A stretch of DNA of 64,000 bases from Micromonospora tarapacensis. Lineage in GTDB: Bacteria > Actinomycetota > Actinomycetes > Mycobacteriales > Micromonosporaceae. The notes under the pieces are model-generated. The model was not told the DNA's origin, did not search any database, and was given only the letters and a program-made list of their open reading frames with translations. The translations under genes were made by a program, and so were the position numbers. The stretch covers positions 2,219,324 to 2,283,323 of the forward strand of contig NZ_JAHCDI010000004.1 of the NCBI RefSeq assembly GCF_019697375.1, in the 5' to 3' direction. This document shows positions 27,717-63,322 of this stretch, one piece after another; the first letter of the stretch is position 1, and the number at the start of each line of letters is the position of its first letter.

Positions 27717-27835
27717 CCCGCGATTTTGTCACGGCAGGATAAGAACACCCGGCATTCTCGCTGCCGGTGGGACGGTGTTTCGACCCGATCGCCCGCGCGA
27801 CGATGGACCCGGACGACCCGACGGAGGAGATCGCC

Positions 27836-30118
27836 GTGCAGCACCGCCTGTCCCGCCAGCACGTCGTCGACATGTGCCGGACCATGCTCGCCCGCGGCTA
27901 CCTCAAGGCCACCGAGGGCAACGTCTCGGTCCGCGTGCCCGGCCACCGGCTCTACGCGGTGACCCCGAGCAACTACGACTACGACCGGATGCGCGTGGCG
28001 GACGTCTGCCTCGTCGACTTCGACGGCAGGCAGGTGCCCGACGACTCCGGCGCCGGGCTCGAACCGTCGATCGAGTGCGGGATGCACGCCAACATCTACC
28101 GGCAGCGCCCGGACGTCAACGCGATCGTGCACACCCACCAGCCGTACGCCTCGGCGCTGGCCTTCCTGCGCAAGCCGATCCCGGCGCTGACCGACGAGCA
28201 GGTGCGCTTCCTCGGTCGCGAGGTGGCGATCGTCGACTACGCCCCGTCGGGCACCGGCTTCCTTGCCCGCAACGTGCAGAAGAAGGTGAGCAGCGGCGAC
28301 AACGCGTTCATCATCGCCAACCACGGGGTGGTCGCCGTGGGCACCGACCCGGACCGGGCGGTGTTCAACATGGCGTTGCTGGAGAAGGTCTCCATCGCGT
28401 ACCTGCTGGCACTGACCAGCGAGGCGGGGAAGGTCTACACCATCCCGACCGCGATCCGGGAGATCGCCTTCGGCAAGCTGCGCGCCGACGAGAAGCGGAT
28501 CGCCGCGCAGATCACCAGGGCGGTGCAACCGCTGCGGGTGCCGGCCGACGAGCCGCTTCCGAGCGCCGACGCGACCGCCGCCGAGAGCGCCGACGCCGCC
28601 GAGGCCGCGAGCGCCACGCCAGCGCCGGCGCAGACCACGGCCGGCGAGGCGGCGGGCACCGAGTCGGCCCGCCTCGGCTACGCGATCAGCGAGTACCCGG
28701 ACGTCGACGACGTGCTGCGGCGGCTGAAGGCGCTGACCGCCCAGCCGGTGCGCGGGCTGCGCCACGACGCGCTGCTGGACGTGCTCAACTACTTCGACAC
28801 CAGGTGCCGGGCCAGCAAGGAGATCACCGACCGGGCCCGGGGTCGGATCCCCGGCGGCGTGCAGCACAACCTGGCCTTCAACTACCCGTTCCCGCTCGCC
28901 GTCGACAAGGCCGAGGGCGCCTACCTGGTGGACCGGGACGGCAACACCTACATCGACTTCCTCCAGGCCGGCGGGCCGACGATCCTGGGCAGCAACTACG
29001 CCCCGGTCAACGAGCGGGTCGCCGAGGTGGTCCGGGCCTGCGGGCCGGTGACCGGCCTGTTCCACGAGTACGAACTCAAGCTCGCCGAGATCATCCACCG
29101 GTTCATGCCGCACGTGCAGATGTACCGCTCCCTCGGCTCCGGCACCGAGGCGGTGATGGCCGCCGTCCGGGGCGCCCGCGCCTTCACCGGCAAGAAGATG
29201 GTGATCAAGGTCGGCGGCGCGTACCACGGCTGGTCCGACACGATGGTGTACGGGCTGCGGGTGCCCGGCACGTACCGGATGAACGCCAAGGGCATCCCGT
29301 TCGGCGCGACCAGCCGCACCCGCGAGTCCTTCCCGCACGACCTGGGCCAGCTCAAGCGCAAGCTGATCGAGAACCGGCTGCGTGGCGGCACCGCCGCCGT
29401 CATCGTCGAACCGGTCGGCCCGGAGTCCGGCACCCGCCCGGTGCCCCGCGACTTCAACGCGCACGTCCGCGCGCTCTGCGACGAGTTCGGCGCACTGCTC
29501 ATCTTCGACGAGGTGATCACCGGTTTCCGGCTCGGTCTCGGCGGCGCGGCCGGCTACTTCGGCGTCACCCCCGACCTGACCGTGCTGGGCAAGGCGGTCT
29601 CCGGCGGCTACCCGATGGCCGGCGGGGTCGGCGGGCGGGCCGACGTGATGGCGGTCTTCGGCTCCGGGCTGGACGGCAAAAGTGGGGCGCACATCCAGGT
29701 CGGCGGCACGCTGTCGGCCAACCCGCTGTCCTGCGCGGCCGGCTACTTCGCGATCGAGGAGATGGCCCGGACCAACGCGCCGCTGATCGCCGGCCGCGCC
29801 GGTGACCGGCTCACCCGAGGGCTGCAACGGCTGATCGACTCCTACGGTCTGCCGTACGTCGCGTACAACCAGGGGTCCATCGTGCACCTGGAGTGCAGCG
29901 GCGTGATGCTGCTCGACATGCGCAACCCGGTGAAGCTGCTGCGCGAGAACAAGGCCCGCAAACGGCTGATGGAGCAGATGGGCGCCGCGTACACGGCGCA
30001 CGGCATCATCACCCTGGCCGGCTCCCGGATGTACACCTCGATGGCCGACACCGACGAGGTCGTCGACGACGCGCTCGCCCGGTTCGACCGGGTCTTCGCG
30101 TTGGTCGAGGGGGTCTGA
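27836..30118 (+). CDS. Class II aldolase fused to class III aminotransferase
   Basis: 760 residues from a GTG at 27836 with a strong GGAGGAG site 6 nt upstream. Residues about 1-225 form a class II (FucA/AraD) aldolase/epimerase domain: GNVSVRVPG, ECGMHANIYRQRPDVNAIVHTHQ (Glu and His metal ligands), and ANHGVVAVG. An Ala/Pro/Glu linker (about 240-285) leads to a PLP fold-type I aminotransferase like glutamate-1-semialdehyde aminomutase: YRSLGSGTEAVMAA, GGAYHGWSD, IFDEVITGFRLG, and the lysine in VLGKAVSGGYP. One protein could thus make or cleave a hydroxy-aldehyde and transaminate it. It is followed 4 bp later by an FGGY kinase. The substrate is unknown. Confidence 0.88.
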   Translation: MQHRLSRQHVVDMCRTMLARGYLKATEGNVSVRVPGHRLYAVTPSNYDYDRMRVADVCLVDFDGRQVPDDSGAGLEPSIECGMHANIYRQRPDVNAIVHTHQPYASALAFLRKPIPALTDEQVRFLGREVAIVDYAPSGTGFLARNVQKKVSSGDNAFIIANHGVVAVGTDPDRAVFNMALLEKVSIAYLLALTSEAGKVYTIPTAIREIAFGKLRADEKRIAAQITRAVQPLRVPADEPLPSADATAAESADAAEAASATPAPAQTTAGEAAGTESARLGYAISEYPDVDDVLRRLKALTAQPVRGLRHDALLDVLNYFDTRCRASKEITDRARGRIPGGVQHNLAFNYPFPLAVDKAEGAYLVDRDGNTYIDFLQAGGPTILGSNYAPVNERVAEVVRACGPVTGLFHEYELKLAEIIHRFMPHVQMYRSLGSGTEAVMAAVRGARAFTGKKMVIKVGGAYHGWSDTMVYGLRVPGTYRMNAKGIPFGATSRTRESFPHDLGQLKRKLIENRLRGGTAAVIVEPVGPESGTRPVPRDFNAHVRALCDEFGALLIFDEVITGFRLGLGGAAGYFGVTPDLTVLGKAVSGGYPMAGGVGGRADVMAVFGSGLDGKSGAHIQVGGTLSANPLSCAAGYFAIEEMARTNAPLIAGRAGDRLTRGLQRLIDSYGLPYVAYNQGSIVHLECSGVMLLDMRNPVKLLRENKARKRLMEQMGAAYTAHGIITLAGSRMYTSMADTDEVVDDALARFDRVFALVEGV

Positions 30119-34549: not shown

Positions 34550-36028
34550 TCACTCCCGGGTGGCGCCCATCGGCTCGCGGACCAGGGCGCCGTCGATGTA
34601 GCAGTAGCGCCACTCCTCGCCCTCCTCCAGCGACCGGATCAGCGGGTGCCCGGTGTGCCGGTAGTGCTCCTCGGCGTGGTTGTTGACCGAGTCGCTGCAA
34701 CAGCCGACCGCCCCGCAGGTCAGGCACATCCGCAGCTGCACCCAGTCGTCACCGCTCTCCACGCACTGCGGGCACGCGTGCGCGTCGGACTCGGTGATGT
34801 GGATCCGGTCCAGGTGGGTGCAGGCGGTGCTGATGGTCTCCTCGCGCACGTACCGCCAGCTGGCGTGCAGCAGCCGGTCCGGAATGATCCGGGCGAGGTA
34901 GCGGGAGTTCGCGGCGAGCAGCGGGCTGACCACGGCAAGGATCAGCACGTAAAGCGCGATGAACGGGCCGAGTCGGCCGTCGAGGCCGGCGGTGAGGGCG
35001 AGGGTGGCGAGGATCAGCGAGAACTCGCCCCGGCCCAGCACCGTCAGGCCGACGTTGGCCGCCCCGCGCTGGTTGAGCCCGAACAACCGGCCGGCGATCA
35101 GGCCCGCCAGCACGTTGGTGACGATGGTCATCGTGACCGCCAGCAGCACCGGCAGCGCCACCGAACCGAAGTCGCCGACGTCGATGCTCAGCCCGAACGC
35201 CACGAAGAAGACCGCCGCGAAGACGTCCCGCAGCGGCAGCACCAGGCGTTCCACCCGCTCGCGGATGGGAGTGCGGGCCACCACCAGACCGATCATCAGG
35301 GCGCCGATCGCGTCGGAGACACCGATCTCGGCCGAGACGCCGGCGACGAGCACCACCAACCCGACCATGAGAATGGCCAGCAGTTCGTCCTCGTTGCTGT
35401 CGATCACCTTGCTGACCAGGCGGGCACCGAAGCGGGCCACGGCGAAGAGCACCACCAGGTACGCGAAGCTGAGCCCGATGCGCAGCGCGAGTTCCCCGGC
35501 GGTCCCGGCGCCGGACAACAGCGGCGAGAGCAGCGCCAGGTACAGCGCGAGGAACAGGTCCTCGATCACGATGATGCCGAGAATGACCGGGGTCTCCGCG
35601 TTGGCCAGCCGGCGCAGCTCGATGAGCAGCTTGGTGACGATGGCCGACGAGGAGATGCCGAGCGCACCGGCGACCACGAACGCCTCGTGGCCACCCCAGC
35701 CCAGCGCGAGACCGAAGATCAGCCCGGCGCCGACGTTGAGCAGGATGTAGCAGCCGGCCGCGACGAACAGCCGCCTGCCACTGCCGAGCACCTGCCCGAT
35801 CGGGAACTCGACGCCCAGGTGGAACAGCAGCAGCACCAGGCCGAGCGAGGCGAGCAGGCTCAGGTCCTCGGGGTGGGCGATCAGCACGGGGCCAGGGGTG
35901 CCCGGCCCGAGCAGGATGCCGGCGAGCATGAAGAACGGCACGGTGGGCAGGTTGATCCGACGGCCGAAGCGGGCCAGCAGGCCCGCGATCAGCACGAGGG
36001 CTCCGAAGCCCACAAGGTCAGCGTGCAC
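34550..36028 (-). CDS. CPA2 cation:proton antiporter fused to UBP-type zinc finger
   Basis: 492 residues. The first about 395 are a KefB/KhtU-like CPA2 antiporter with about 12 helices (LPTVPFFMLAGILLGP, GISSSAIVTKLL, GRGEFSLILATLAL). The last about 85 residues are a ZnF-UBP domain: CTHLD, then CPQCVESGDDWVQLRMCLTCGAVGCC, then NNHAEEHYRHTGHPLIRS and a final WRYCYID. All Cys/His ligands for the usual zinc sites are present. In eukaryotes this fold binds the ubiquitin C-terminus; here it faces the cytoplasm and has no obvious ubiquitin partner. The upstream 75-residue protein looks like its regulatory subunit. Confidence 0.88.
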   Translation of the reverse strand: MHADLVGFGALVLIAGLLARFGRRINLPTVPFFMLAGILLGPGTPGPVLIAHPEDLSLLASLGLVLLLFHLGVEFPIGQVLGSGRRLFVAAGCYILLNVGAGLIFGLALGWGGHEAFVVAGALGISSSAIVTKLLIELRRLANAETPVILGIIVIEDLFLALYLALLSPLLSGAGTAGELALRIGLSFAYLVVLFAVARFGARLVSKVIDSNEDELLAILMVGLVVLVAGVSAEIGVSDAIGALMIGLVVARTPIRERVERLVLPLRDVFAAVFFVAFGLSIDVGDFGSVALPVLLAVTMTIVTNVLAGLIAGRLFGLNQRGAANVGLTVLGRGEFSLILATLALTAGLDGRLGPFIALYVLILAVVSPLLAANSRYLARIIPDRLLHASWRYVREETISTACTHLDRIHITESDAHACPQCVESGDDWVQLRMCLTCGAVGCCSDSVNNHAEEHYRHTGHPLIRSLEEGEEWRYCYIDGALVREPMGATRE

Positions 36029-51376: not shown

Positions 51377-52606
51377 TCATTCGCCCAGGAAGTCGTCGAT
51401 GTGGAACAGGAACTCGTCCCAGGCCGACTCGGAGGCGGTCAGCAGGTGATTCCGGCTGTCCAGCAGGACCAGCCGGCTGTCGGGGATGAGCGCGGCCAGC
51501 TCTCTGGCCTGCGAGACCGGCACTCGCGCGTCGTCGCGGGCGTGGATGATCAGGGTCGGACACTGCACCCGGTGCGCGATGTCGGACACGTCGATCCGAG
51601 CAAACTCCTCCAGGAAACGGACGCCGTTCTCCGGCGAGGTCGTCCGCCGCTGAAAGGCGGTGAACTCCTGCCACTCCTCCGGGGTGCCGTCCGGCAGGAA
51701 CTGGGAGGCGAAGACCCGCAGGAACCCCGGGTCCTGGTGTAGCCAGCCGACCCGGGCCAGGCTCAGGTCGAGTGCCGCCGCGTCACTCTCGGCGGCGTTG
51801 CCGGCCCTGACCCGGCGGCCACGCGCGTAGGCGCCCGCCAGAATCAACCTGCTGACCCGTTCGGGACGCCGCACCGCGTAGGCCACCGCCACCGCGCCGC
51901 CCTGCGAGACACCGAGCAGCGGAAACCGGTCAAGGCCCACCGCGTCGACCACCGTCTCCAGATCATCGACCCAGTCGTCGAAGGTGTAGCTCGGCGCCAC
52001 CCAGTCCGACATGCCACAGCCCCGCTCGTCATAGCGGATCAGCTGCCGGTCACGCGCGAGACCGTTGAGCCAGTGCGACCACACCGGAGTCGCCCACTCC
52101 AGGTCGAGATGCGTCATCCAGTTGGCAGCCTTGAGCAGCGGCGGGCCTGAACCGACGGCGGCGTACGCGATGGCGGTGCCGTCGTCCGCGTTGCAGAACT
52201 GGATGGTCTGGCGGTCCGCGCCGATCACCGGTCTCGGCGGTTTCGACACGGTGCCGGAGACCCGCCCGGGCTCGGCCGTCGGTCCGGCCCGGAGCACGGT
52301 CGTCGGGCCGACGAACTGATAGCCCCGCCGGTGGACGGTGCGGATCATCTGCTGCTGGCTGCCCGTGTCCCCCACGGCCAGGCGCGCGGTCCGCAGCCCC
52401 GTGGTGAGGGCGGCCTCGCTGACGAAGCGGTCACCCCACACCTCGTCGAGCAGTTCGTTCTTCGTGACGATCCGGTCCCGGTGCTTCACCAGGTGGCACA
52501 GGAGGTCGAGGGCACGGGGCTCGACGTGGACCGCCGCACCGGCCCGGCGGAGCTGGTGACGAGAGGGGTCCAGCTCGTAGTCACCGAAGCGATAGGTAGC
52601 TTCCAC
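51377..52606 (-). CDS. Winged-helix/alpha-beta-hydrolase fusion protein, copy 2 (intact)
   Basis: 409 residues. N-terminal OmpR/CadC-type winged helix (FGDYELDPSRHQLRRA, LDLLCHLVKHRDRIVTKNEL, MIRTVHRRGYQFVGPT) without a receiver domain. A linker (about 105-140) is followed by an alpha/beta hydrolase with nucleophile elbow LLGVSQGGAVAVAYA, acid IIHARDDARVPV and His in DSRNHLL. It is clearly a paralogue of the gene at 48606-49840 and marks the intact architecture. The cytoplasmic hydrolase may act as ligand sensor, as in gibberellin/strigolactone receptors and the AHL-like systems; an active enzyme is also possible. Its own target promoter is unknown. Confidence 0.9.
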   Translation of the reverse strand: MEATYRFGDYELDPSRHQLRRAGAAVHVEPRALDLLCHLVKHRDRIVTKNELLDEVWGDRFVSEAALTTGLRTARLAVGDTGSQQQMIRTVHRRGYQFVGPTTVLRAGPTAEPGRVSGTVSKPPRPVIGADRQTIQFCNADDGTAIAYAAVGSGPPLLKAANWMTHLDLEWATPVWSHWLNGLARDRQLIRYDERGCGMSDWVAPSYTFDDWVDDLETVVDAVGLDRFPLLGVSQGGAVAVAYAVRRPERVSRLILAGAYARGRRVRAGNAAESDAAALDLSLARVGWLHQDPGFLRVFASQFLPDGTPEEWQEFTAFQRRTTSPENGVRFLEEFARIDVSDIAHRVQCPTLIIHARDDARVPVSQARELAALIPDSRLVLLDSRNHLLTASESAWDEFLFHIDDFLGE

Positions 52607-52806: not shown

Positions 52807-54294
52807 ATCCACGACAGCACCCCGGAAAGCCTTGTCGACCGTACGCGGGTAGTGCTCGGCCAGGCCGTCGACGTGTACCGCGACACTGCTCACCAACAGC
52901 GGCTGGCCGCGATGCGCGACCGGCTCGACGAACCGCTTCGGGTGGCGATCGCCGGCCGGGTCAAGGCCGGAAAGTCGACGCTGCTCAACGCCCTGGTCGG
53001 GGAACGACTGGCGCCCACCGACGCGGGTGAGTGCACCCGCATCGTCACCTGGTATCAGGACGGGCACACCTATCAGGTCATGGCCCAGCCATATCAGGGT
53101 CCGCCACGGCAGGTCCGGTTCAGCCGTGAGGACGGCGCCATCGAAATGGACCTCGGCGACCTCGGTGCGGACGACGTGGCACAGCTGGAGATCAGTTGGC
53201 CGTCGCAGGCGCTGCGGCCGATGACGCTCATCGACACCCCGGGTATCGGGTCGCTGTCCGAGCAGATCTCGCAGCGGTCCTGGAGTCTGCTCGTCCCGGA
53301 CGACCAGGAGACACCCGCCGACGCTGTGATCTACCTGATGCGCCACCTGCACAGCAACGACGTCGACTTTCTCCGCGCCTTCCACGATGTGGAGGTGTCC
53401 CGTCCCAACCCGGTCAATGCGATCGGGGTGCTGTCCCGCGCCGACGAGATCGCCGTGGGCCGGCTCGACGCGATGGCGTCGGCACGCCGGATCGCCGGCC
53501 GGCTGAGCACCGACCCGAGCGTCCGGAAGCTGGTGCAGTCGGTCGTTCCGGTGGCTGGTCTGCTCGCCGAGACCTCAGGGACACTGACCGAGGTGGAGTT
53601 CGCCCGGCTGCGCCGGATCTCGGAGCTGCCGGCGGCCCAGGCCGATCAGCTGTTGCTCTCCGCCGACAGGTTCGTCCAGACCATGCCGGAGCTGGGCATG
53701 ACCTCGATCGAACGGGAGGCGCTGCTGGCCCGCTTCGGCATGTTCGGGCTGCGGCTGTCCGCGGCCCTGCTGAGACATGGCACCTGCGGCACCGCCACCG
53801 AACTGGCCCGGGAACTGACCGAGCGCAGCGGGCTCGCCCAGCTCCGGGAGGTTCTCGGATCGCTGTTCCTCGAACGCCGGGACGTCCTCAAGTCGAGGTC
53901 GGCCCTGCTCGCCCTGGCCGACGTCACCCGGGCGCACGCCCGGCCGGGTAGTGAGGGTCTCGCCGGAAAGGTGGAGGAGATCATCGCCTCCGCGCACCCG
54001 TTCAACGAGCTGAGAGTGCTCTCCGGCCTGCGGGCCGGATGGGTGACCGGGAAGCCCGACGTCACAGCCGAACTGGAACAGCTCATCGGCGGCAGCGGCG
54101 CCACGCCCCACCAGCGACTGCGGCTGCCACCGGATGCGTCCGCCGCGGAGCTGGACGCGGCGGTGGAGAGGGCGCTGGCCCGCTGGCAGCGCCGCGCCGA
54201 GAATCCGCTGACCTCCGCGGCGATGGCGGTCGCCGCGCGGGTGGCAGTCCGTTCCTGCGAAGGCATGATCGCCGACCGGCACCGGTCGCGGTGA
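52807..54294 (+). CDS. Bacterial dynamin-like GTPase, IniC-like
   Basis: GTPase of 495 residues if read from 52807. G1 is IAGRVKAGKSTLLNAL, G3 is LIDTPGIGS, and G4-like is VLSRADEI. The rest is helical, as in IniC/DynB proteins, with no strong membrane segment, so it likely assembles with the IniA-like partner at 57486-59300. Start: AAGGAG (52794-52799) lies 7 nt before an in-frame ATC, while the first standard in-frame start (GTG 52852) has no ribosome site and would cut the N-terminal helix. I mark the ATC but am unsure. It is convergent with the Hsp70 gene across a hairpin. Confidence 0.85.
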   Translation: MHDSTPESLVDRTRVVLGQAVDVYRDTAHQQRLAAMRDRLDEPLRVAIAGRVKAGKSTLLNALVGERLAPTDAGECTRIVTWYQDGHTYQVMAQPYQGPPRQVRFSREDGAIEMDLGDLGADDVAQLEISWPSQALRPMTLIDTPGIGSLSEQISQRSWSLLVPDDQETPADAVIYLMRHLHSNDVDFLRAFHDVEVSRPNPVNAIGVLSRADEIAVGRLDAMASARRIAGRLSTDPSVRKLVQSVVPVAGLLAETSGTLTEVEFARLRRISELPAAQADQLLLSADRFVQTMPELGMTSIEREALLARFGMFGLRLSAALLRHGTCGTATELARELTERSGLAQLREVLGSLFLERRDVLKSRSALLALADVTRAHARPGSEGLAGKVEEIIASAHPFNELRVLSGLRAGWVTGKPDVTAELEQLIGGSGATPHQRLRLPPDASAAELDAAVERALARWQRRAENPLTSAAMAVAARVAVRSCEGMIADRHRSR

Positions 54295-54331
54295 GGGAGG
54301 CGTCACCCGCGAGGTCGACCAAGCCGCAGGA

Positions 54332-54363
54332 AGCGGGCCCGATGATCAATCTTCGGGCCCGCT
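54332..54363. terminator. Bidirectional terminator between IniC-like dynamin and Hsp70 genes
   Basis: An 11-bp perfect stem (AGCGGGCCCGA / TCGGGCCCGCT) encloses a 10-nt loop (TGATCAATCT), in the 89-bp gap between convergent genes. Confidence 0.85.
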
Positions 54364-54383
54364 CGGCGTTTCCGGCTCGTTGA

Positions 54384-56282
54384 TCAGTTGCGCTGGATCG
54401 GGAAGCAGTTGCCGGTGTGGTAGCTACCGTCGTACGCCCTGGCCAACTGGTGTCCGTTCTTCGCGATCCGGGCACAGATCTTCTCGGCGTCGCCGACGGC
54501 CTCGAAGTCCTCGTCCGAGGTCCGGCGCACCGACGGCTGCTGATCCTCGAAGTAGTACTGGCCGTGGCCGGTGGCCTGGCTGCCCATCAGGGCCTCGTCT
54601 GGCGAGGTGCCGTCGCCGCCGTACAGATGCAGGTGGAAGCCGTTGGCGATGTTCGGCTTGCTGCCGTTCCACTCCGCGTCGAACCACACCGTGAAGGTGC
54701 CGTCCTGCACGGTCGCCTTGGTGATGCAGACCCAGCGGGTGCTCTGCTTCAGCTCCGTGCAGTCCTCGTCCGGCGGCACCTCGTCGGCGGCCGGCGTGCT
54801 GGCGGCCGGTGCCTCGTTTTCCGTCTGGTCCCCTGCCCCGGCGACGATATCGGTGGCCCCGTTGTTCTGGTTCCCCTGGCCGTCCCGACCGACCAGGGCC
54901 CAGGCCGTGCCGCCGCCGACCAGCAGGAGCACGACGACGGCCGCGGCGACCAGCAGCGGCCCGCGCCGCCGGCCACCGTTGTCCACCGCCGACGGCGCAA
55001 CGGGGATCGGCCCCGTGGTCTCGGCATCGTGCGTCTTCGGGACACCTGGCACGGCCGCGGACCCGTACCCGGTGGGGGGCCAGTTCCGGACGACCCGCTC
55101 CGGTGCCGGCGGGCTCGCGGACGCGGGCATCGCGGCGGTCGGCTCGGGGGTGGTGGCGACCGCGGTCACGGGCCGGCCGGTCGCACCGCCGGGCTCCGCC
55201 CGCACCGTGCCGGGGCCGGCGATCGTGGTGCTCGCCTGCCACGCGGCGCCGAGCGCGACCGCGTGCTTGGGATGGGCGTCCACTGCCACCGGACGGCCCA
55301 ACTCCGAGCCGACCAGCTGCGCGACGATCGGCATCCGCGACGATCCACCGACCAGCAGCACCGAGTGCAGATCCCGGGGGTCCACCCCGGCGGAACGGAC
55401 GGCTCGCCGCAACGACTCGATCGAGCCGTGCAGCGCCGGGCGGACCATGGCCTCCAGTTCGGCGCGGGTCAGCCGAATCTCGGTGTTGATGTTCGGCAGC
55501 AGGACCGGGATCGCGGCGTCGGTGTCGGCGGAGAGCGCCTCCTTGGCCTGCACACACTCCTCACGCAGCCGGGCGACCGAGGCGATCACGGCGGGATCGT
55601 CCTCGTCCAGCTCGTCCAGCTTGTCGCCGATGGCCGCGGCGACGTGGGCGAAGATCGCGGCGTCGAAGTCGATGCCACCGAGCCGCTCGATCCCCTCCGG
55701 CGCGCCGATCAGGTCGAAGCCGCTCGACGTCTTGCGCAGCACCGCCGCGTCGAACGTCCCGCCACCGAGGTCGTAGACGGCGACCACCGCACCCGGCTCC
55801 AGGCGCTGCTGGTGCGCGTAGAACACGGCCGCCGCCTCCGGCTCGGTGATGAAATGCACCGGCTGCTCGATGCCGGCCAACCGGACCGCCTGATGCATGA
55901 GGTCCATCTTGTACGGTCCCCAGTTCGCCGGGCGTGAGACGCAGATCGCCGCCGGCTCGCCGCCCTCGCGGGACACCACCTCGTCGACGGCGGCCCGCAG
56001 CATGCGGGCCATCAACGCCTCCGCCGAGTAGGGCACCCCGCCGAGCAGAATCGGGGTGGAGTCGCCGAGGCGCCGCTTGAACTCCCGGGCCACCCGGTTC
56101 GGCTCGCTCAGTCCCCGGCGGCTGGCGCTGTCGCCGGTCAGGAACGTCTCGTCGGCGCGAAGTAGCACCACCGAGGGAATCGCCGCCGAGTGGCTGCCGA
56201 GCGGGGCGATCTCGGCCCGGCCAGCGCGCCAGACGGCCGCAGCGGTGTAGGTGGTTCCCAGATCGATGCCGAGTGCGTACAT
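54384..56282 (-). CDS. Membrane-anchored Hsp70-family protein
   Basis: 632 residues. Residues 1-350 are a DnaK-like nucleotide-binding domain: GIDLGTTYTAAAVW (phosphate 1), VYDLGGGTFDAAVL (phosphate 2) and SVLLVGGSSRMPIVAQLV (adenosine). There is no classical substrate-binding domain. Instead an Ala/Pro/Thr linker leads to one membrane span (LLVAAAVVVLLLVGGGTAW, about 445-468) and an exported domain of about 160 residues with four cysteines (CTEL, WVCIT, KICARI, NCFPIQ). The cytoplasmic ATPase is thus coupled to an outside domain, like a sensor or a scaffold. It lies in the dynamin locus, as found for related actinobacterial genes. Confidence 0.9.
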   Translation of the reverse strand: MYALGIDLGTTYTAAAVWRAGRAEIAPLGSHSAAIPSVVLLRADETFLTGDSASRRGLSEPNRVAREFKRRLGDSTPILLGGVPYSAEALMARMLRAAVDEVVSREGGEPAAICVSRPANWGPYKMDLMHQAVRLAGIEQPVHFITEPEAAAVFYAHQQRLEPGAVVAVYDLGGGTFDAAVLRKTSSGFDLIGAPEGIERLGGIDFDAAIFAHVAAAIGDKLDELDEDDPAVIASVARLREECVQAKEALSADTDAAIPVLLPNINTEIRLTRAELEAMVRPALHGSIESLRRAVRSAGVDPRDLHSVLLVGGSSRMPIVAQLVGSELGRPVAVDAHPKHAVALGAAWQASTTIAGPGTVRAEPGGATGRPVTAVATTPEPTAAMPASASPPAPERVVRNWPPTGYGSAAVPGVPKTHDAETTGPIPVAPSAVDNGGRRRGPLLVAAAVVVLLLVGGGTAWALVGRDGQGNQNNGATDIVAGAGDQTENEAPAASTPAADEVPPDEDCTELKQSTRWVCITKATVQDGTFTVWFDAEWNGSKPNIANGFHLHLYGGDGTSPDEALMGSQATGHGQYYFEDQQPSVRRTSDEDFEAVGDAEKICARIAKNGHQLARAYDGSYHTGNCFPIQRN

Positions 56283-56699
56283 CCCTATGCTCCGGAGTTC
56301 GTCGAAGGTGAGTCAATGGCGGTAACGGACTGTCGGTCAACGACCGGACCGGGACACCCGGCCGCCCGATGGCCGGGTGATTGTGTGCGGCGCGGGCCCG
56401 TCATCGTGGCCGTGCCGGCACGGTAGGGACCGGGCCGCAGGTGGGGATCGGGCGACGAATCCGGCGATGGCGCGATCGGCCCGCGGCCGAGGCATCGCTG
56501 ACGATCTGGCTACCAGGATCAACAGGGCCGGAAGGCTCGGGTAGGTGAGCGCGGCCGGCACCCTGATCTCGATCGACCGAGGCGAGATCATTCATCGCAT
56601 CGATCACGTCGCCCGCCGTCCTTGTCTTTCGCTCGTCGCGCCGAGCACTGACGCCGAGGCACCACGCAAGCGTGGCAGCCTTTGCCGGTACGGGGCATC

Positions 56700-56711
56700 G
56701 GGGTAATCCCC
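56700..56711. promoter_or_regulatory. GGGG-TAAT-CCCC palindrome, site 1 of the dynamin locus
   Basis: A 4-bp inverted repeat with a 4-nt centre, preceded by GCATC exactly as at site 3 (GCATCGGGG-NNAT-CCCC). It lies 109 bp upstream of the gene at 56820 and 418 bp upstream of the divergent Hsp70 gene. It is possibly the operator of the LuxR-type regulator at the end of the locus. The rest of the 537-bp divergent gap (56283-56819) shows no gene; a small hairpin GGTGGG-AA-CCCACC lies at 56726-56739. Confidence 0.55.
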
Positions 56712-56771
56712 CTCGCAGCCCCCGGGGTGGGAACCCACCGTCACCGCCAAGCCGGCGATAGGGGACGGTCA

Positions 56772-56783
56772 GGGGATGTCCCC
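56772..56783. promoter_or_regulatory. GGGG-ATGT-CCCC palindrome, site 2
   Basis: A second copy of the GGGG-N4-CCCC pattern (outer bases A and T also pair loosely) lies 36 bp before the ATG at 56820, a position that would overlap the promoter and suit an operator. The spacing between site 1 and site 2 centres is 72 bp, about seven helical turns. Confidence 0.5.
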
Positions 56784-56819
56784 CTGCCGCGGCCGATGGC
56801 GTGTTCCTAATCTGGTGGC

Positions 56820-57474
56820 ATGGCACCGGCGCGATCCCTCCATGAGATCATCACGGGGTTGACCGGCGACGCCGGAACCTCGGGCGATCTCGCCGCCGCA
56901 CTGCACGCCGGCGGCTATCCGGACCTACCACCGGATCTGCTCGCCGAGGCAGTGGTGAGCTTCGCCGGCACCGCGCCGGCCGAGATCGCCGAGCATCTGG
57001 CACCGTTCGTCATGGCACACGGTCCGATCGCACCGGGCGACACCGCGGCGGGCGACATCGGGCGGCTGTCCGACCTGCTCGCCACCGCTCCCACCACGGA
57101 ACTGGACGGGGATTCGGTCCTGGAGACGCCGGAGATCGATCCGCCCGTCGACAGCGGCAGCGTCGACCCGGCAGATCTGCTGGACGACGACGAGAGCCAT
57201 GCCGGCGGGCACGTGCCCGCCGAACCCGGCCGGCGCCGCCGGACCCGGCGTTCGGCCACGGGCGGCCCCGGCCCGGACGGAACCGGCCGACGACCCGGCA
57301 TTCGGTGCCGTGGCGCCGGAGGCAGCGCCGGCCGGGTACGTCGATGCGCAGCAGCAGTCGGCGCCGGACGATCCGGTGCCGGTGGACGACGAGCCGCCAC
57401 CGGCCGCCGATCCATGGGCGGAACTCCGGTTGTCCGACGACGCGCCGGAGATCGACGACATCGACGGCGACTGA
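56820..57474 (+). CDS. Unknown protein of the dynamin/Hsp70 locus (two apparent frameshifts)
   Basis: Residues 1-135 read cleanly: an all-alpha N-terminal domain (SLHEIITGLTGDAGTSGDLA, LLAEAVVSFAGTAPAEIAEH) then an acidic stretch (PADLLDDDESHAGG). Beyond about 57225 the original frame continues only as an antisense artefact of the next gene. Two added C's, at 57225-57227 and 57266-57269, link it through PAPPDPAFGHGRP to EPADDPAFGAVAPEAAPAGY and the acidic end SDDAPEIDDIDGD, about 218 residues in all. The internal DPAFG repeat supports this reconstruction. It is divergent from hsp70 and convergent with the iniA-like gene. No family recognised; a scaffold role is a guess. Confidence 0.65.
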
Positions 57475-57485
57475 GTCCAGCCGGG

Positions 57486-59300
57486 TCAGGAAACGATCGC
57501 CGACGCGTGTTCTCGCAGCTGCCGAAGGCGGTCGATCTCTGCGGTCAGATCGCGCAGGCGGGCTTCGCGCTCGGCCTTGGTGCGCTGCGCCGCCTCCGCT
57601 GCCGCGCTCAACGCCCTGGTGTTGGACCGGGACAACTCGTCGGCGAGGCCGCTGTAGTGGTCGCGCAACTGACGCTGGATCCGGCGCAGGGTGTCCCTGG
57701 AGTCCTTGGTCATCACGAAGCTGACCTCGTCGCAGTAGCGCCGGATGGCGTTGCGGGCCTGACTCTGCCGGCTCGTCCGTTGCCGTTTCTTCTCCTCGCG
57801 CAGGCCCTTGCGACCCATCACCAGACCGATCCCGACGCCGATCGGGCCGAGGGCGACGCCGGCCAGCGTGCCGAGCATGGTGAACATGAGCGCGCCACCG
57901 TAGGCGCTCTTGAGTGCCACCATCGCCTGCTTCCCGACCTTCATCTTCGCCAGCTCGATCTTGTGATCGACCTGGGCGGCGCCGGCCAACGACACCGGGT
58001 CGGTGACGGCGACCTGGCGAAGTGCCTGACCTGCGGCCTCCTGGAAGTGGCCGGCCACGTCGTCGCTGAGAGCGATCGACCGGTCCCGGAGCATCATGTA
58101 GTTGGCCAGCAGTTCGTCGGAGACCCGGGCCAGCAGCCACCGTTCCGTCTCCTCCCAGACGTCGGCCGGGTCACCTTCCTCGATCTGCGCGTCGGCTTCC
58201 TCGACCAGCCGACGGAACCTGCCGCGCAGGTCGTGATCGATGTCGGAGCTGAGATCGGCGATGCCGTCGCTGAGGGTCTGCTGCCACTTCGCCGCGGCGG
58301 TCTTGAGCGCCTCGACCCGCTGCCTCACCTCGTTCAGGTCGTCCATCACCTTCGCCGCAGCGGCCGGGTCCGCGAGCGCGGCCCGTTCCGCCTCGAACTG
58401 GCTTTCGATCTGCTCGCAGACCCCGACGACCGACGCACCCGCCTGGGCGGCTGCCCGGGTAGCGGCTCCGCCAGAGACCCGCTGAGCGACGAACTTGACC
58501 AGGTCCGGGAACCCGGACTCGGCGTTGAGCTCCTTGTCGCCGCCGGCCACGGCACGCCGCCGGAGATCGGAGGACACCGCGATGATCGGCATGTCCGCCT
58601 CGCCGTGCAGGTGTCCCGCGTCGAGGTCACGGATCTTGCGCCAGTGCGGATAGAAGTCGGTCTTGGTGAGCACGCACACCGCCGTGGAGCACACCTCGCG
58701 GGCTTGACGGAGGAACTGCAACTCGCTGCGGGTGAGTTCTTGCGCCGCATCGGTGACGAACAAGAGCGCGTCGGCCATGGAGGCCGCGGTCAGGCTGGCC
58801 GCCGCGTGCACCGAGCCGAGCCCGCCGACCCCTGGGGTGTCGACGATGACGAGGCCGCTGGAGAGCAGTCGACGCGGCAGCCGGACCTCCACCCCGGTGA
58901 CACCGGCCACCGCGCCCTCGGTCTCCTTCTCCAGCACGAACTCCCGCACCCGGTCGATCGGCACCGGCTCGCGCCGGGGCGGAACCTCGTCGAGGAGCAA
59001 CTGCGCCGACGGTTCCTTGCCAAATCGGATGTAGGTCGGCAGGGCGGTGGCGACGTCGTCGTCAACCGGGCAGATGTCGTGCCCGACCAGCCCGTTCACC
59101 AGGGAACTCTTGCCCTGCTTGAATTCGCCGACGACGACGATGTGCACCACCGGGTCGGCCAGGGTGGCGCGAACGCCGGCGAGCCGGCCGGCGAGATCCG
59201 CACGGTCGTACGCCTCACAGGCGTGTTGTGCGAGGTCGACGATCCGGGTCGCCTGTTGCAGCGTGCCGTCGGCGTCGGATGATGCGGTGGTTGCGGTCAA
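57486..59300 (-). CDS. Bacterial dynamin-like GTPase, IniA-like
   Basis: 604 residues from a TTG at 59300 with AGGAA upstream. GTPase motifs: G1 VVGEFKQGKSSLVNGL, G2 Thr in ATALPTYIR, G3 IVDTPGVGGLG, G4 VLTKTDFYP. A helical stalk follows, with a hydrophobic paddle hairpin (ALMFTMLGTLAGVALGPIG, then VGIGLVMGRKG) and a Lys/Arg-rich tail as in M. tuberculosis IniA and BDLP. This predicts nucleotide-driven membrane binding and fission or fusion. It is the likely partner of the IniC-like GTPase at 52807, and lies downstream of the IniB-like gene behind a terminator hairpin. Confidence 0.9.
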   Translation of the reverse strand: MTATTASSDADGTLQQATRIVDLAQHACEAYDRADLAGRLAGVRATLADPVVHIVVVGEFKQGKSSLVNGLVGHDICPVDDDVATALPTYIRFGKEPSAQLLLDEVPPRREPVPIDRVREFVLEKETEGAVAGVTGVEVRLPRRLLSSGLVIVDTPGVGGLGSVHAAASLTAASMADALLFVTDAAQELTRSELQFLRQAREVCSTAVCVLTKTDFYPHWRKIRDLDAGHLHGEADMPIIAVSSDLRRRAVAGGDKELNAESGFPDLVKFVAQRVSGGAATRAAAQAGASVVGVCEQIESQFEAERAALADPAAAAKVMDDLNEVRQRVEALKTAAAKWQQTLSDGIADLSSDIDHDLRGRFRRLVEEADAQIEEGDPADVWEETERWLLARVSDELLANYMMLRDRSIALSDDVAGHFQEAAGQALRQVAVTDPVSLAGAAQVDHKIELAKMKVGKQAMVALKSAYGGALMFTMLGTLAGVALGPIGVGIGLVMGRKGLREEKKRQRTSRQSQARNAIRRYCDEVSFVMTKDSRDTLRRIQRQLRDHYSGLADELSRSNTRALSAAAEAAQRTKAEREARLRDLTAEIDRLRQLREHASAIVS

Positions 59301-59376
59301 CGTCGTTCCTACCCGTCACATGTTGGGGTACAGCGGACCGAAGCCGGTCGATCGATCGACTTGGGAGCACCAGCAT

Positions 59377-59406
59377 GGCGTGGTGGGTTCGGGAACCCAC
59401 CACGCC
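59377..59406 (-). terminator. Very stable hairpin between IniB-like and IniA-like genes
   Basis: A 14-bp perfect stem (GGCGTGGTGGGTTC / GAACCCACCACGCC) with a 2-nt loop centre (GG). It lies 58 bp after the IniB-like stop and 77 bp before the IniA-like start, both on the minus strand. It is a terminator or attenuator that would set IniB:IniA expression ratios. Confidence 0.8.
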
Positions 59407-59464
59407 ACGATGTCCTCATCCGGCCCGCCGTACGGCATCCGCGAAGCTCTGTCCGATCCTCGGC

Positions 59465-60849
59465 TCAGGCACCCAGGCTCGGGGCCGGCTCGGGGTTGTC
59501 GCCCGACTCCCCGATCTTGATTTCGTTGTCCTCGTTGTTGAACGAGTCCTCGTTGTTGAACGAATCCTCGTTGTTGAACGAATCCTCGTTGTTGAACGAG
59601 TCGTCCACGGACTGGTCCTTGAACGAGTCCTCGACGGACTGGTCGTTGAACGAGTCCTGGGTCGTCGACGCGTCACCGCCGACGGACAGTGCCGAATCCT
59701 CGACATCGTTGGCGTTCTGCTGACTGCCACCACCGAAGTTGAGGTTGATCTGTTCCAGGTCACCGCCGTCGCCACCGTCGTCGCTGCCACCCGCGCCGCC
59801 GCTGGTGTCGATGTCGAGCTGAGCGGTCTGGTTGTTGTCCCCCACGACAGCCTTGTCCACGTCGTCGCCGACGATGCCGAAGTTGTCGCCCAGGATCGCC
59901 TTGTCGACGTCGCCGTCGGCCTGGACGCCCGAGTTGGTGCCCGTGTTGACGACACCGTCGATGTCGTCGCCCGCCGTCACCGCGTTGTCGCCGGTGTTTC
60001 CCACCACGTCACCGTTCTCCGAGGTGCCGAGGAACGCACCGTCGCCGGTCGCGCCGAGCACGTCACCGTCGCCGGCGCCGACCACCGAGCCGTCGCCTGC
60101 GGTGACCTTGTCACCGTCGACGAACTCCACCGACGAGTTGTCGCCGGTGGCGGCGAACGCGTCGTCTCCCGCGGCCACCGCGCCCCCGGTCGCGGCGACC
60201 TGGTCCCCGTCGCCCTGCTGGGCCACCGCACCGTCGCCGGTAGCGGCATTGACGTCACCGTCGCCGGCGCTGCCGACGTTGCCGTCGCCGGCCTGGTTGA
60301 GGTTCGTGGAGTCGATGTCGATGTCGCCGAGAACCTCGCCGTCCACGTCCAGGTCCACCGAGTTGTCGATGTCGGTGGAGTTGTCGGTGAAGGTCTGGGA
60401 GTTGTCCACGAAGTTCTGGGTCGTGAAGGTCTGTGCGACGTTGCTGACCTGCTGCACGGTCTGCACGGCCGGCGCCGAGGCCGCAGCACCGGCTCCCCGC
60501 CACCGCCGCCACCACCGACGCCCCCGGCACCACCGCCACCGAAGCCGCCGCCACCGCCGCCGCCACCGAAGCCGCCGCCACCGCCGCCGCCACCGCCGAA
60601 GCCGCCGCCACCGCCGCCGCCACCGCCGAAGCCGCCACCGCCCGGGCCGGCGCTGCTGCCGAAGGCGGCCTCGTTGACGATCTGGTCGACATCGACGGCG
60701 CTGAGCGTCTCGGCGTCGATGTCGTTGGCGGCGAAGGATCCGGCCGGGTCGGCGAGGAACTTCGCGGTTTCCGCTTCGCTGCTGAAGACCTTCTCGAAGA
60801 GTGCCCGGATGTTGTCGATGATCAGCGGAGTAACTTCCACAGTAGACAT
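59465..60849 (-). CDS. IniB-like low-complexity protein (frameshifted)
   Basis: ATG at 60849 with AGGAAG. The N-terminal about 75 residues form the IniB N-domain: LIIDNIRALFEKVFSSEAET and AKFLADPAGSFAANDIDAET. A poly-Gly/Phe tract (GGGGFGGGG units) follows. The remaining about 335 residues are read after adding one G at 60494-60497, joining GGGG to GAAASAPAVQTVQQ. They are acidic and highly repetitive: AGDGxVxxATGDGA units (about 9-10 residues each) that could form a beta-solenoid, then DNNQTAQLDID and four exact EDSFNN repeats. No signal peptide is seen. In mycobacteria IniB is induced by wall-active drugs; its function is unresolved. Confidence 0.82.
59529..59600 (-). repeat. Four 18-bp tandem repeats (EDSFNN coding)
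   Basis: The unit TCCTCGTTGTTGAACGAR is repeated four times without a gap (59529, 59547, 59565, 59583) near the 3' end of the IniB-like gene. It encodes repeated Glu-Asp-Ser-Phe-Asn-Asn hexapeptides; related DQSVEDSFK units precede it. The frame-preserving repeat could vary between strains. Confidence 0.9.
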
Positions 60850-60928
60850 GGCTTCCTGCCTCGCTCGGGGGCCGGCCCCACCGGCCGGATACCTAAAAGC
60901 TTGCGTTTCAGGGCCGGTGCTTCGCATC

Positions 60929-60940
60929 GGGGCTATCCCC
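60929..60940. promoter_or_regulatory. GGGG-CTAT-CCCC palindrome, site 3 (IniB-like promoter)
   Basis: It lies 80 bp before the IniB-like ATG, in the 142-bp gap after the regulator gene. It is preceded by GCATC as at site 1. A half-site GGGGATTA follows at 60953-60960, equal to the reverse complement of part of site 1. Candidate operator for the LuxR-type regulator. Confidence 0.55.
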
Positions 60941-60991
60941 ATTCCGTGCCAAGGGGATTAGGGACCGGTGGCTGCTCGCCCCCTGGCGGTC

Positions 60992-63322
60992 CTACGGCTC
61001 CGCAGGAAGCCGGCTGCGCAGCGCTGCGATCATCTCGGCCCGGCTGCCGGCGCCCAGCTTTGCCCGGATCCGGGCAACATGGTGCTCCACCGTCTTCGGG
61101 GACACGTAGAGCTGCGAGCCGATCTCCCGGTGGGTACGGCCCGCCAGCACCAACCGAGCCACGTCCACCTCCCGGTCGGACAAGCCGCCCCGGCCCGCGT
61201 CCCGGACCGACTCGTCCGCAACCAGATCCACATAGGACATCTCTCGGGCACGCTCCAGCAGACGGCGCGCCGCCGACGGATCGCTGGTCCGGATCGCGGC
61301 GTGCCCGAGCAACCGGGACGATTCCCAGGGCAGGCCGGTCGCGTCGAGTTCGGCGGCGTCCGCCAGCACGCCGTCCGGGCAGACCTCGCCGGCGAGCGCG
61401 GCTGACCAGCGAGTGGCGGCACGGCACTGGGCCTGCTGCCGGATGCCCTCCGGATCGAGGCTGCCCAGCTGGCTCGCGGCGGCGGCCGAGGCCGCCTGGT
61501 CCTCGCCGACGATGGCGATCTGCAGCCGGATCCAGCCGAGCGACACCGCCCAGTCGGCCGGCGAGTCGAGCCGGTCGACCACCGCTTCGAGGTCGTCGAG
61601 AATCGGCGTGATCCGCCGGTGCTGGCGTAGCCGGGCGGCGGCAACCAGAATTTCCTCCACCATCTCCAGGTGCACCAGGTCCACCGCTCGCCGGGCGAGC
61701 ACCGGCTCGGCGTACGCCCACGCCGCGCGGAGCTGGGCGACATCGCCCCGGCGCCGGGCAATCCCAGCGGTCAGACACGCGAACGTCAGACGTTCCCGCC
61801 CCGGCAGCGCCGTGCCGGAGAGGCGATCAAGTTCGGCGAGAGCGGTGTCGTACCGGCCGGCTCGGAGCCGGATCCAGGCCAGTAGCGTCCGGTGCCGGTT
61901 CTGGGCGACCGGGCCACCGAGCCCGGCGGTCAGCGCCCGTTCCAGGAGGTGCTCGGCGGTCGCGGTGTCACCGGCGGTCACCGCGACCAAGGCGCCGAGC
62001 GCGTGCGGCAGATCGGGGACAGCGACCGCCGGCGGCGCCTGTTCATAGGCCTCCGCCGCCTCGATCAGCAGTGGCAGGGCAACGGTGGGTCGGCCGATCA
62101 CCAGCGCCGCCTGGGCGAGCAGTCGCAACGGCAGCGGACCCTCACCGGTCGCCGCTGATCGCGCGGCTCCCGGCTGGCCGGTCGCCACCAGCGCCGCAAC
62201 GGCCAGAACCGGACCGGGGTGGTTGGCGCCCAGCAGCGCCTCGGCAGCGCGGCCGGGTCGGCCGTCGTAGGCCGCGGCGGCACCGGCGACCAACCTGAGC
62301 CGAGCGGCGTCGGCCGGTGACGCGGTTACCGCGTCCAGGTCCACCGGCAAGCCGAGCAGGATGGCGGCCTCGGCCCTCCCGGCCGCCACGACCGCCGGGG
62401 CGGCACCGGCGTCGAGTGCCTCGTCGTACCAGAACAGGGCCCGGTCGGGGGAGGCGAAGCGGAGCCGGTCCGCGGCCTGCTGGTAGACGCCGGCCGCCGC
62501 GGGCGTACGGGCGCGGGCCGCGTGCAGTTGCTCTGCGGCGCGAACCGGGTCGGCGCCGGTGGCCAGCAGGGCCGTCGCCACGGTGTCATGCAGCCGGCGA
62601 CGTTCCGGCGGTGACAGGTCGGCGAGGACCGCGCGGGCGACCGCCGGGATCATCCGTTCACCGTCGGGCACCAACAGTCCCTGGTCGTGCAGCGAGCGGG
62701 TCGCCGCCGCCGCCTGCGCCGGGTCCAGCCGGGCGGCCGCGCAGACGACGTCGTCGTCGAGATCCAGGCCGAGCGCGAGAATCATGGCCAGTTCCGCAGT
62801 GTCGCGGCCCGGCCCGGCGAGCCGGCGTTGCAGCCGGGCAACCAGCGCGGGTGGCGTGCCGTCCGGGGCGACCGCCACTGTCTCGGCGATGGCGGCCAAG
62901 CCTGCCGAGGCGCTGTGGACCGCAGCCACGTGCTCGGCCGTCGCCGGCCGGCCGAGCACGGCGGTGACCATCGCGGAGAGGGCGTCGTGGGTGAGGGGGC
63001 CGAGGTGTTCGACCGTCCCCACGGCGGCGACCGCCTCGTCGAGGTCGGCCAGTTCCGGCCCGTTGATCGTGGGGCGGCGGGTGATCGCCATCGACACTCC
63101 GGTGCGGGCGGCGGCGGCCAGCGTCGACAGCGCCTCCGCCGGCAGCCGGTGCGCGTCGTCGACCACGACCATCGCGCCGTCAGTGCGGGCGCGGGCAAGC
63201 AGCGTACCCAGATCCTCGGCGGATGTGGCGATGACCGGGAGGACCGGCCGGCCGGAGGCCGCGGCGACCTCGCCGAGCCGGCGGGTTCGCCCGGCACCGT
63301 CCACACCCACCACCACAGTCAC
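60992..63322 (-). CDS. LuxR-type large regulator, IniR-like
   Basis: 776 residues from a GTG at 63322. The C-terminal LuxR helix-turn-helix is complete ([41 protein letters not shown]). The N-terminal NTPase part starts at once with [12 protein letters not shown], a P-loop in which the usual Lys is Arg, followed by the Walker B-like [10 protein letters not shown]. Long alpha-helical TPR-like repeats fill the middle. The protein resembles M. tuberculosis IniR (Rv0339c) in size and position next to iniB. It is the best candidate to bind the GGGG-N4-CCCC sites. With a degenerate P-loop, ATP hydrolysis may be lost while binding remains. Confidence 0.83.

Follow-up and report, generated by a model that had tools for sequence, protein, structure and literature searches.

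An extended ini-type locus of Micromonospora tarapacensis combines two dynamins with a predicted membrane-anchored Hsp70-family protein

A six-gene locus in the 6.9 Mb genome of Micromonospora tarapacensis, at positions 52807..63322 of the 64,000-nt stretch of DNA that we analysed (hereafter, the window), encodes two dynamin GTPases (IniA and an IniC-like protein), an IniB-like protein, an IniR-like regulator, an acidic protein and a member of the Hsp70 family. All six genes that the initial annotation had assigned to an extended iniRBAC-like locus were confirmed at their positions, and sequence comparison shows their grouping to be more than chance because the genes co-occur across loci and genomes. 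We interpret the Hsp70-type protein as a receptor or adaptor in the membrane and not as a chaperone. Our preferred interpretation, held tentatively and with a little less than even confidence, is an extended ini (envelope-stress) unit organized around the dynamin pair and an Hsp70-derived membrane protein that would serve the dynamins; the envelope-stress theme is taken over by analogy from the mycobacterial literature.

The association of the Hsp70 with the dynamins was evaluated in loci from the same order and from named genomes (labels Lnnn and Gnnn refer to compared loci and genomes, respectively). An IniC search matched 60 of the 121 genomes of the order, and all 21 loci with at least 262 bits outside the own genome were taken as the order set; ten weaker loci were also fetched. 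A non-DnaK Hsp70 nucleotide-binding domain was detected near IniA/IniC in 20 of the 21 order loci, within stretches of up to 20 kb, and the sole miss (L055) starts at a contig end. The named genomes yielded at least 74 loci, and 32 with both IniA and IniC (L079-L110) were counted. The ini-type Hsp70 was found in 25 of them, with one more marginal case (L110), and two contigs are shared by the order and named sets (L108 = L062, L081 = L053). The named genomes with the Hsp70 include Pseudonocardia, Kribbella, Arthrobacter, Agreia, Paractinoplanes, Saccharopolyspora, Nocardia, Micromonospora and Mycobacterium, while stretches from Frankia, Parafrankia and Cellulomonas have dynamins without it. 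Among more distant dynamin pairs, the Hsp70 accompanied 8 of 15 loci. The conservation of the Hsp70 beside the dynamins, on which the initial annotation had made its grouping depend, thus extends across genera.

Within the source genus, IniC was detected in 35 of 61 genomes, and every one of these 35 carries the ini-type Hsp70 with at least 195 bits. The two genes lie on the same contig within ~5 kb of each other in 34 of the 35, and on two contigs in G204. Apart from two genomes considered below, the best Hsp70 match in the genomes of this genus without IniC was 89 bits or less. All six families are present in L153-L155, the closest relatives found for the M. tarapacensis locus. In two loci from IniC-less genomes of the genus (L156 and L157), membrane-anchored Hsp70 relatives were observed near weak LuxR-type frames.

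The anatomy of the Hsp70-type protein differs from that of a chaperone. The protein has one strongly hydrophobic stretch, which is preceded by RRR with the positive residues on its N-terminal side and joined to the nucleotide-binding domain by a Pro/Ala-rich linker. The Pfam HSP70 profile is covered only to position 373 of 599. In the PDB it matches DnaK and further Hsp70s, and the two top matches are limited to residues 4-356 and 4-351. No substrate-binding domain was recognized, as nothing is conserved after the nucleotide-binding domain in an alignment of 14 rows, and the predicted outside part, whose four cysteines are common to L079 and L080, had no relative among solved structures in the PDB better than E 0.87. 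The nucleotide-site residues D8, T11, K70, E171, D194, T199 and D201 (E. coli DnaK numbering) are all kept in the locus Hsp70 and in 13 aligned relatives. Three further positions, R167, N170 and T173, which we take to be the J-protein contacts of DnaK, and D393, presumably in its linker, are occupied in the locus Hsp70 by H, T, E and a gap. In an alignment of 40 rows, two of them DnaK and the other 38 including second Hsp70 copies and cut frames, R167, N170 and T173 were kept together in none of the 38 Hsp70-type rows, and D was seen in two of the 38 at the linker position, which is aligned with little certainty. The receptor or adaptor reading follows from the lack of a substrate-binding domain, linker and J-contact residues, together with outside parts that vary from lineage to lineage.

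The C-terminal parts are diverse. A scan of 14 proteins gave two with PD40 propeller repeats and a third with a YNCE propeller; we read the propeller-matching proteins as those of L087, L090 and L083. The Hsp70s of L057-L062 have Thr/Pro-rich stalks, those of L066 and L068-L070 end in short tails, and those of L043, L049 and L051 have hydrophobic anchors at the C-terminus. The nucleotide site is degraded in the Micromonospora-type proteins of L068-L070 (for example, K70 to V and D194 to A) and in the Mycobacterium-type proteins of L057-L059 and L062 (D8 to S, K70 to V and T199 to G). The Mycobacterium-type and common Micromonospora-type members that were checked are therefore probable pseudo-ATPases, judging by these residues.

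The two dynamin genes of M. tarapacensis are convergent, pointing towards each other with the Hsp70 and acidic genes between them, and not divergent as first described (Table 1). IniA and IniC are separated in this locus and adjacent in L153-L155, and hsp70 and iniR form separate units. IniA aligned with the solved IniA structure over residues 20-602 (386 bits). The IniC-like protein is 38-53% identical to 15 IniC-position dynamins, 40-42% to those on four named Mycobacterium contigs (L098, L107, L108 and L110), and up to 69% to its closest relative. Its frame is open from 52807, where an ATC codon stands behind a Shine-Dalgarno-like AAGGAG. The first standard start is residue 16 of this longer version, and the alignments of several homologues begin at residues 3-10 of it.

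Table 1 Genes, Hsp70 parts and putative promoter elements of the locus, with positions in the window
Feature	Position	Strand	Basis or remark
IniC-like dynamin GTPase	52807..54294	+	Pfam Dynamin_N 45 bits; first standard start GTG 52852
Hsp70-family protein with predicted membrane anchor, 632 aa	54384..56282	-	Pfam HSP70 173.9 bits
Hsp70 nucleotide-binding domain, residues 1-352	55227..56282	-	nucleotide-site residues intact
Hsp70 predicted transmembrane segment, residues 444-464	54891..54953	-	hydropathy 2.4 over 21 residues
Hsp70 predicted extracytoplasmic part, residues 465-632	54387..54890	-	four cysteines
Acidic, likely IniB*-like protein, two frames in the assembly	56820..57474	+	similarity to intact relatives
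IniA dynamin GTPase	57486..59300	-	Pfam Dynamin_N 83.8 bits; PDB 6j72
IniB-like protein, two frames in the assembly	59465..60849	-	IniB N-domain
IniR-like STAND/LuxR regulator	60992..63322	-	NCBIfam NF038181, 212 bits
Putative element copy 1, GGGGATAGCCCCGATGC, before iniB	60924..60940	-	one of two perfect genome copies
AGGGGATTAGGG repeat beside copy 1	60952..60963	+	other genera have TTAGGGG-type repeats in comparable positions
Putative element copy 2, GGGGATTACCCCGATGC, between hsp70 and acidic gene	56695..56711	-	second perfect copy
TAGGGGA + AGGGGAT direct repeat before acidic gene	56759..56777	+	L153-L155 have similar repeats there

The IniB-like protein consists of an N-terminal domain, Gly-rich repeats and a Gly/Asp/Asn-rich tail, so both the N-domain and the Gly/Asn-rich tail expected of IniB are present, with a frame break in the Gly-rich part. 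A profile of the N-domain was built from five seeds, one of which is the M. tarapacensis N-domain itself, and at least one frame with this domain was found in 18 of the 21 order loci and 20 of the 32 named loci. The acidic gene is broken as well (~57225-57240, compared with ~60500 for the IniB-like gene), and both breaks are near GC-rich or repetitive stretches. Both splits are probably assembly errors; for the acidic gene, the intact single-frame versions in three relatives from the genus (L153-L155) make an assembly error or a recent frameshift likely.

The intact relatives of the acidic protein, all encoded divergently from hsp70, have 214-236 aa, with 42-48 acidic versus 5-8 basic residues, and the N-terminal piece of the M. 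tarapacensis protein is 37% identical to the 214-aa protein of L154. The gene adjoins hsp70 in divergent orientation in M. tarapacensis too. Its conservation beside the dynamins, also predicted initially, was borne out within the genus by L153-L155 and outside it by a single match of 34 bits (L080); in a plain search of the 121 order genomes, six besides the own genome had matches, all of them weak (18-20 bits). When the IniB N-domain profile was rebuilt without them, the three intact proteins matched it in the last round with E values of 2e-4 to 7e-4, and against the five seeds alone with 0.006, 0.06 and 3.5. The M. tarapacensis N-terminal piece had no match to this profile in any round, and the L080 frame was absent among the profile matches. 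A small gene named iniB*, weakly homologous to the beginning of iniB, has been described between iniR and iniBAC (PMC5760070). In L057-L060 and L062, a gene of the iniB* type is placed between hsp70 and iniB. Based on its position, its intact relatives and their fit to the IniB-domain profile, the acidic protein is likely IniB*-like (Rv0340-like). The product that the initial annotation left unrecognized is best read as the iniB* of PMC5760070.

The regulator aligned end to end, over residues 4-771, with the NCBIfam IniR model NF038181 and scored well below its cut-off of 750 bits (Table 1), so we name it IniR-like, not IniR. Its P-loop (GVDGAGRT) has Arg instead of Lys, as in three relatives of the same genus. 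Between L070 of the source genus and L105 of Micromonospora orduensis, the IniR proteins matched with 1234 bits and the Hsp70s with 586 bits.

A putative promoter element was found at two places in the locus. The sequence GGGGATNNCCCCGATGC is perfect at only two sites in the genome, before iniB and between hsp70 and the iniB*-like gene, against a rough expectation of 0.07 perfect matches. Allowing one mismatch added four more sites, and the reversed control had one match with up to one mismatch. Of the 35 copies of the word GGGGAT in the window, 5 fall into these two intergenic regions, which together have 679 bases. Many relatives have TTAGGGG in the region from hsp70 to iniB or iniB*, frequently in the form of direct repeats, and at least one copy was present in 34 of the 64 stretches scanned. 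A total of 77 of the 78 TTAGGGG sites were outside called genes, a count to be read with the rarity of this word in such coding DNA and with a crude gene caller. We infer that the GGGGATNNCCCCGATGC form and the TTAGGGG form are one element because their places match and they have the AGGGGAT core in common. The IniR-like regulator may be the protein that binds this putative element. No IniR motif is given in the passages of PMC5760070 that were covered, and a different element, for the repressor HpoR, is reported in the iniBAC promoter (PMC13413693).

The mycobacterial form was evaluated in the genus to which G007 belongs, taken as Mycobacterium and represented by 40 genomes. The paired pattern TTAGGGGN{1,11}TTAGGGG had 76 sites in 31 of the 40 genomes, compared with 16 for the reversed control pattern. 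IniC was detected in 30 of these genomes, and the pair was present in all 30 with IniC versus one of the 10 without (G148; Fisher 3.7e-8, not corrected for kinship). IniC lies no more than 12 kb away from 61 of the 76 pair sites; the remaining 15 comprise three that are far off on the same contig and 12 that are on another contig or in the genome lacking IniC. The paired TTAGGGG is likely the mycobacterial counterpart of the GGGGATNNCCCCGATGC element. A perfect TTAGGGGATTAGGGG was also seen in G007 (L159 near 9508; G007:C1:1107508), 474 kb from IniC and not tied to a gene, and G128 and G135 have TTAGGGGATTAGGGG away from IniC or on another contig as well. Such distant copies are possible further regulon members.

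Under our preferred reading, envelope damage would activate the IniR-like regulator, which would bind the element and switch on both units. The Hsp70-type protein would sit in the cytoplasmic membrane with its outside part contacting or sensing the wall or envelope. Its inside domain, possibly a nucleotide switch in M. tarapacensis and a probable pseudo-ATPase in the Mycobacterium-type and common Micromonospora-type members checked, would recruit or regulate IniA and IniC, and the dynamins would remodel or repair the membrane there, with the IniB-type proteins as low-complexity accessories. More generally, these proteins may form a family of Hsp70-derived transmembrane receptors, in which a single span would connect an internal nucleotide-binding domain to an exchangeable external module (Cys-containing, beta-propeller or Thr/Pro stalk). 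They would be the sensor or docking part of an actinobacterial ini envelope-repair machine, would be regulated by IniR via TTAGGGG / GGGGATNNCCCC and would have become pseudo-ATPase receptors in Mycobacterium and Micromonospora. We regard this generalization as plausible at just short of an even chance.

A role with the dynamins is supported by 13 loci (L043, L045, L047, L049, L051, L052, L087, L090, L095, L103, L109, L114 and L115) in which the Hsp70 accompanies the dynamin pair in a stretch where a full-length IniR was not detected, suggesting that the Hsp70 serves the dynamins. All of these except L087, L090, L095, L103 and L109 belong to the 15 divergent dynamin pairs. The pairwise distances across 31 loci (excluding L066 and L103, which have stops within the IniC coordinates used) also speak for the preferred reading, being correlated for IniC and Hsp70 (r 0.85), IniC and IniA (0.93) and IniA and Hsp70 (0.74), each with a permutation p of 0.0001. 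Several observations weigh against this reading. Dynamins without a detectable Hsp70 were found in 6 of the 32 named loci, three of them (L093, L096 and L101) within 4 kb of a contig end, and in 7 of the 15 divergent dynamin pairs. Two of the 26 IniC-less genomes of the source genus (G161 and G165) keep a related Hsp70 of ~175 bits. The co-divergence of IniC and Hsp70 would be expected from any joint inheritance. TTAGGGG is missing from 30 of the 64 stretches, including that of M. tarapacensis, which also has no exact TTAGGGG pair. No promoter element was found before the M. tarapacensis iniC, so the shared element does not establish the co-regulation of all six genes. Finally, in 30 of the 34 loci tabulated for gene order, the gene immediately before iniR on the same strand is hsp70, an arrangement that fits a partner of IniR equally well or better.

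That gene order suggests that the Hsp70 gates IniR. The membrane Hsp70 would then sense the envelope, hold IniR inactive at the membrane and release it on damage, with the dynamins as mere targets of the regulon. We consider this alternative less likely than the preferred reading, and the two are the readings that remain. MalK and its partners hold the related regulator MalT inactive, an analogy that is in part general background and in part from PMC5760070, and the middle domain of the M. marinum IniR is MalT-like (PMC5760070). The gap between hsp70 and iniR is -4 to 18 bases in 19 of the 34 loci, L100 (6 bases) included, and the putative element also stands before hsp70. The gene-order table was compiled without L061, L098, L108 and L110, where the Hsp70 nearest IniC is not beside iniR, and for L062 the hsp70 beside iniR was used. 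A gate is harder to reconcile with the 13 loci without a full-length IniR, with the separate hsp70 and iniR units of M. tarapacensis, and with L110, M. marinum and M. tuberculosis, which have IniR and no hsp70 between iniR and iniB* (PMC5760070 for the latter two), the IniRs of M. marinum and M. tuberculosis having been shown to work (PMC5760070). As a separate observation, some Mycobacterium-type loci (L057, L058, L062 and L098) have additional genes with an Hsp70 domain, bringing the number to two or three, and these lie downstream of iniC or of iniR.

A conflict (anti-phage) system of GTPases and Hsp70, comparable to double-GTPase systems or Leo dynamins, would account by analogy for the patchy occurrence of ini loci in the source genus, and GTPase-pair systems with HSP70, in some of which the HSP70 lacks the peptide-binding domain, have been described (PMC7159879). 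PADLOC Leo models also matched IniA (74 and 66 bits) and IniC (33 and 28 bits). Both GTPases are, however, Dynamin_N proteins, with IniA matching the solved IniA at the score given above, whereas the double-GTPases are assigned to another family and have a GAP1 partner (PMC7159879). None of the six genes showed an effector domain, and the ini relatives respond to cell-wall drugs (PMC5760070), making a conflict system improbable.

The 'chaperone component' of the initial annotation corresponds to a working Hsp70 that assembles or dismantles dynamin coats, an idea modelled on Hsc70, which acts on clathrin coats. The complete nucleotide site of the locus Hsp70 and its 13 aligned relatives is compatible with such activity. 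The other chaperone features tested are missing, namely the substrate-binding domain, linker and J-protein contact residues; the C-terminal half is instead the predicted span and outside part, and the nucleotide site itself is lost in the checked Mycobacterium-type and common Micromonospora-type members. A true chaperone was thus rejected and is, in our estimation, very improbable. A chance neighbourhood of unrelated stress genes is scarcely credible and was rejected by the conservation test: the gene order and orientation do differ between the M. tarapacensis locus and its relatives, yet the genes co-occur and share the element, and the Hsp70 matches number 0-10 per genome among the matches listed, so that with ten Hsp70s per 5 Mb one would fall by chance in ~4% of 20-kb stretches.

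The locus resembles the mycobacterial iniR-iniB*-iniBAC (PMC5760070; PDB 6j72) in its IniA-, IniC-, IniB- and IniR-type genes, in its likely IniB*-type gene and in the low-complexity tail of IniB. It resembles the ini locus of M. smegmatis in particular, for which one sentence of the 2017 IniR paper mentions a 'dnaK-like gene' beside iniR (PMC5760070). The association of Hsp70 with ini genes has thus been noted once before, and the initial statement that the mycobacterial locus is not known to include an Hsp70 needs correction to this extent. Beyond this sentence, no report of the breadth of the association, the non-chaperone anatomy or the element was found in the literature covered (open-access articles, with few subscription journals and preprints). 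Unlike the mycobacterial loci, that of M. tarapacensis has a complete nucleotide site in its Hsp70-type membrane protein, a rearranged gene order with IniA and IniC apart, an IniR below the NCBIfam equivalog cut-off with Lys replaced by Arg in the P-loop, and the promoter element in the GGGGATNNCCCCGATGC form.

Eukaryotic HSPA13/STCH is an Hsp70 without a substrate domain. The M. tarapacensis protein is comparable to HSPA13/STCH, and to the GAP1-N2 HSP70 (PMC7159879), in having an Hsp70 nucleotide-binding domain without a peptide-binding domain, and differs from both in its association with dynamins and in the C-terminal span that links the domain to outside parts of variable kind. Loci with several dynamin genes are also known from LeoABC and further paired dynamins of bacteria (PMC4159319, PMC6104087), but no Hsp70, IniB or IniR partners are named in the available parts of these papers and the similarity is distant.

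A co-inherited membrane protein with an outside part would be a concrete candidate for the missing sensor or docking part of the ini system. The Hsp70 has been kept by many species, while the M. tuberculosis arrangement is without it between iniR and iniB* (PMC5760070). The promoter element is a candidate IniR binding site and directly testable. If the receptor reading is true, Hsp70 domains have been reused as receptors.

Three other genes of the window have unusual domain combinations. The neighbour of iniC (51377-52606, minus strand) encodes a Trans_reg_C DNA-binding domain fused to an alpha/beta hydrolase. Further away, class II aldolase and class III aminotransferase domains are found in one frame (27767-30118, plus strand), and a Na+/H+ exchanger has a C-terminal UBP-type zinc finger (34550-36028, minus strand).

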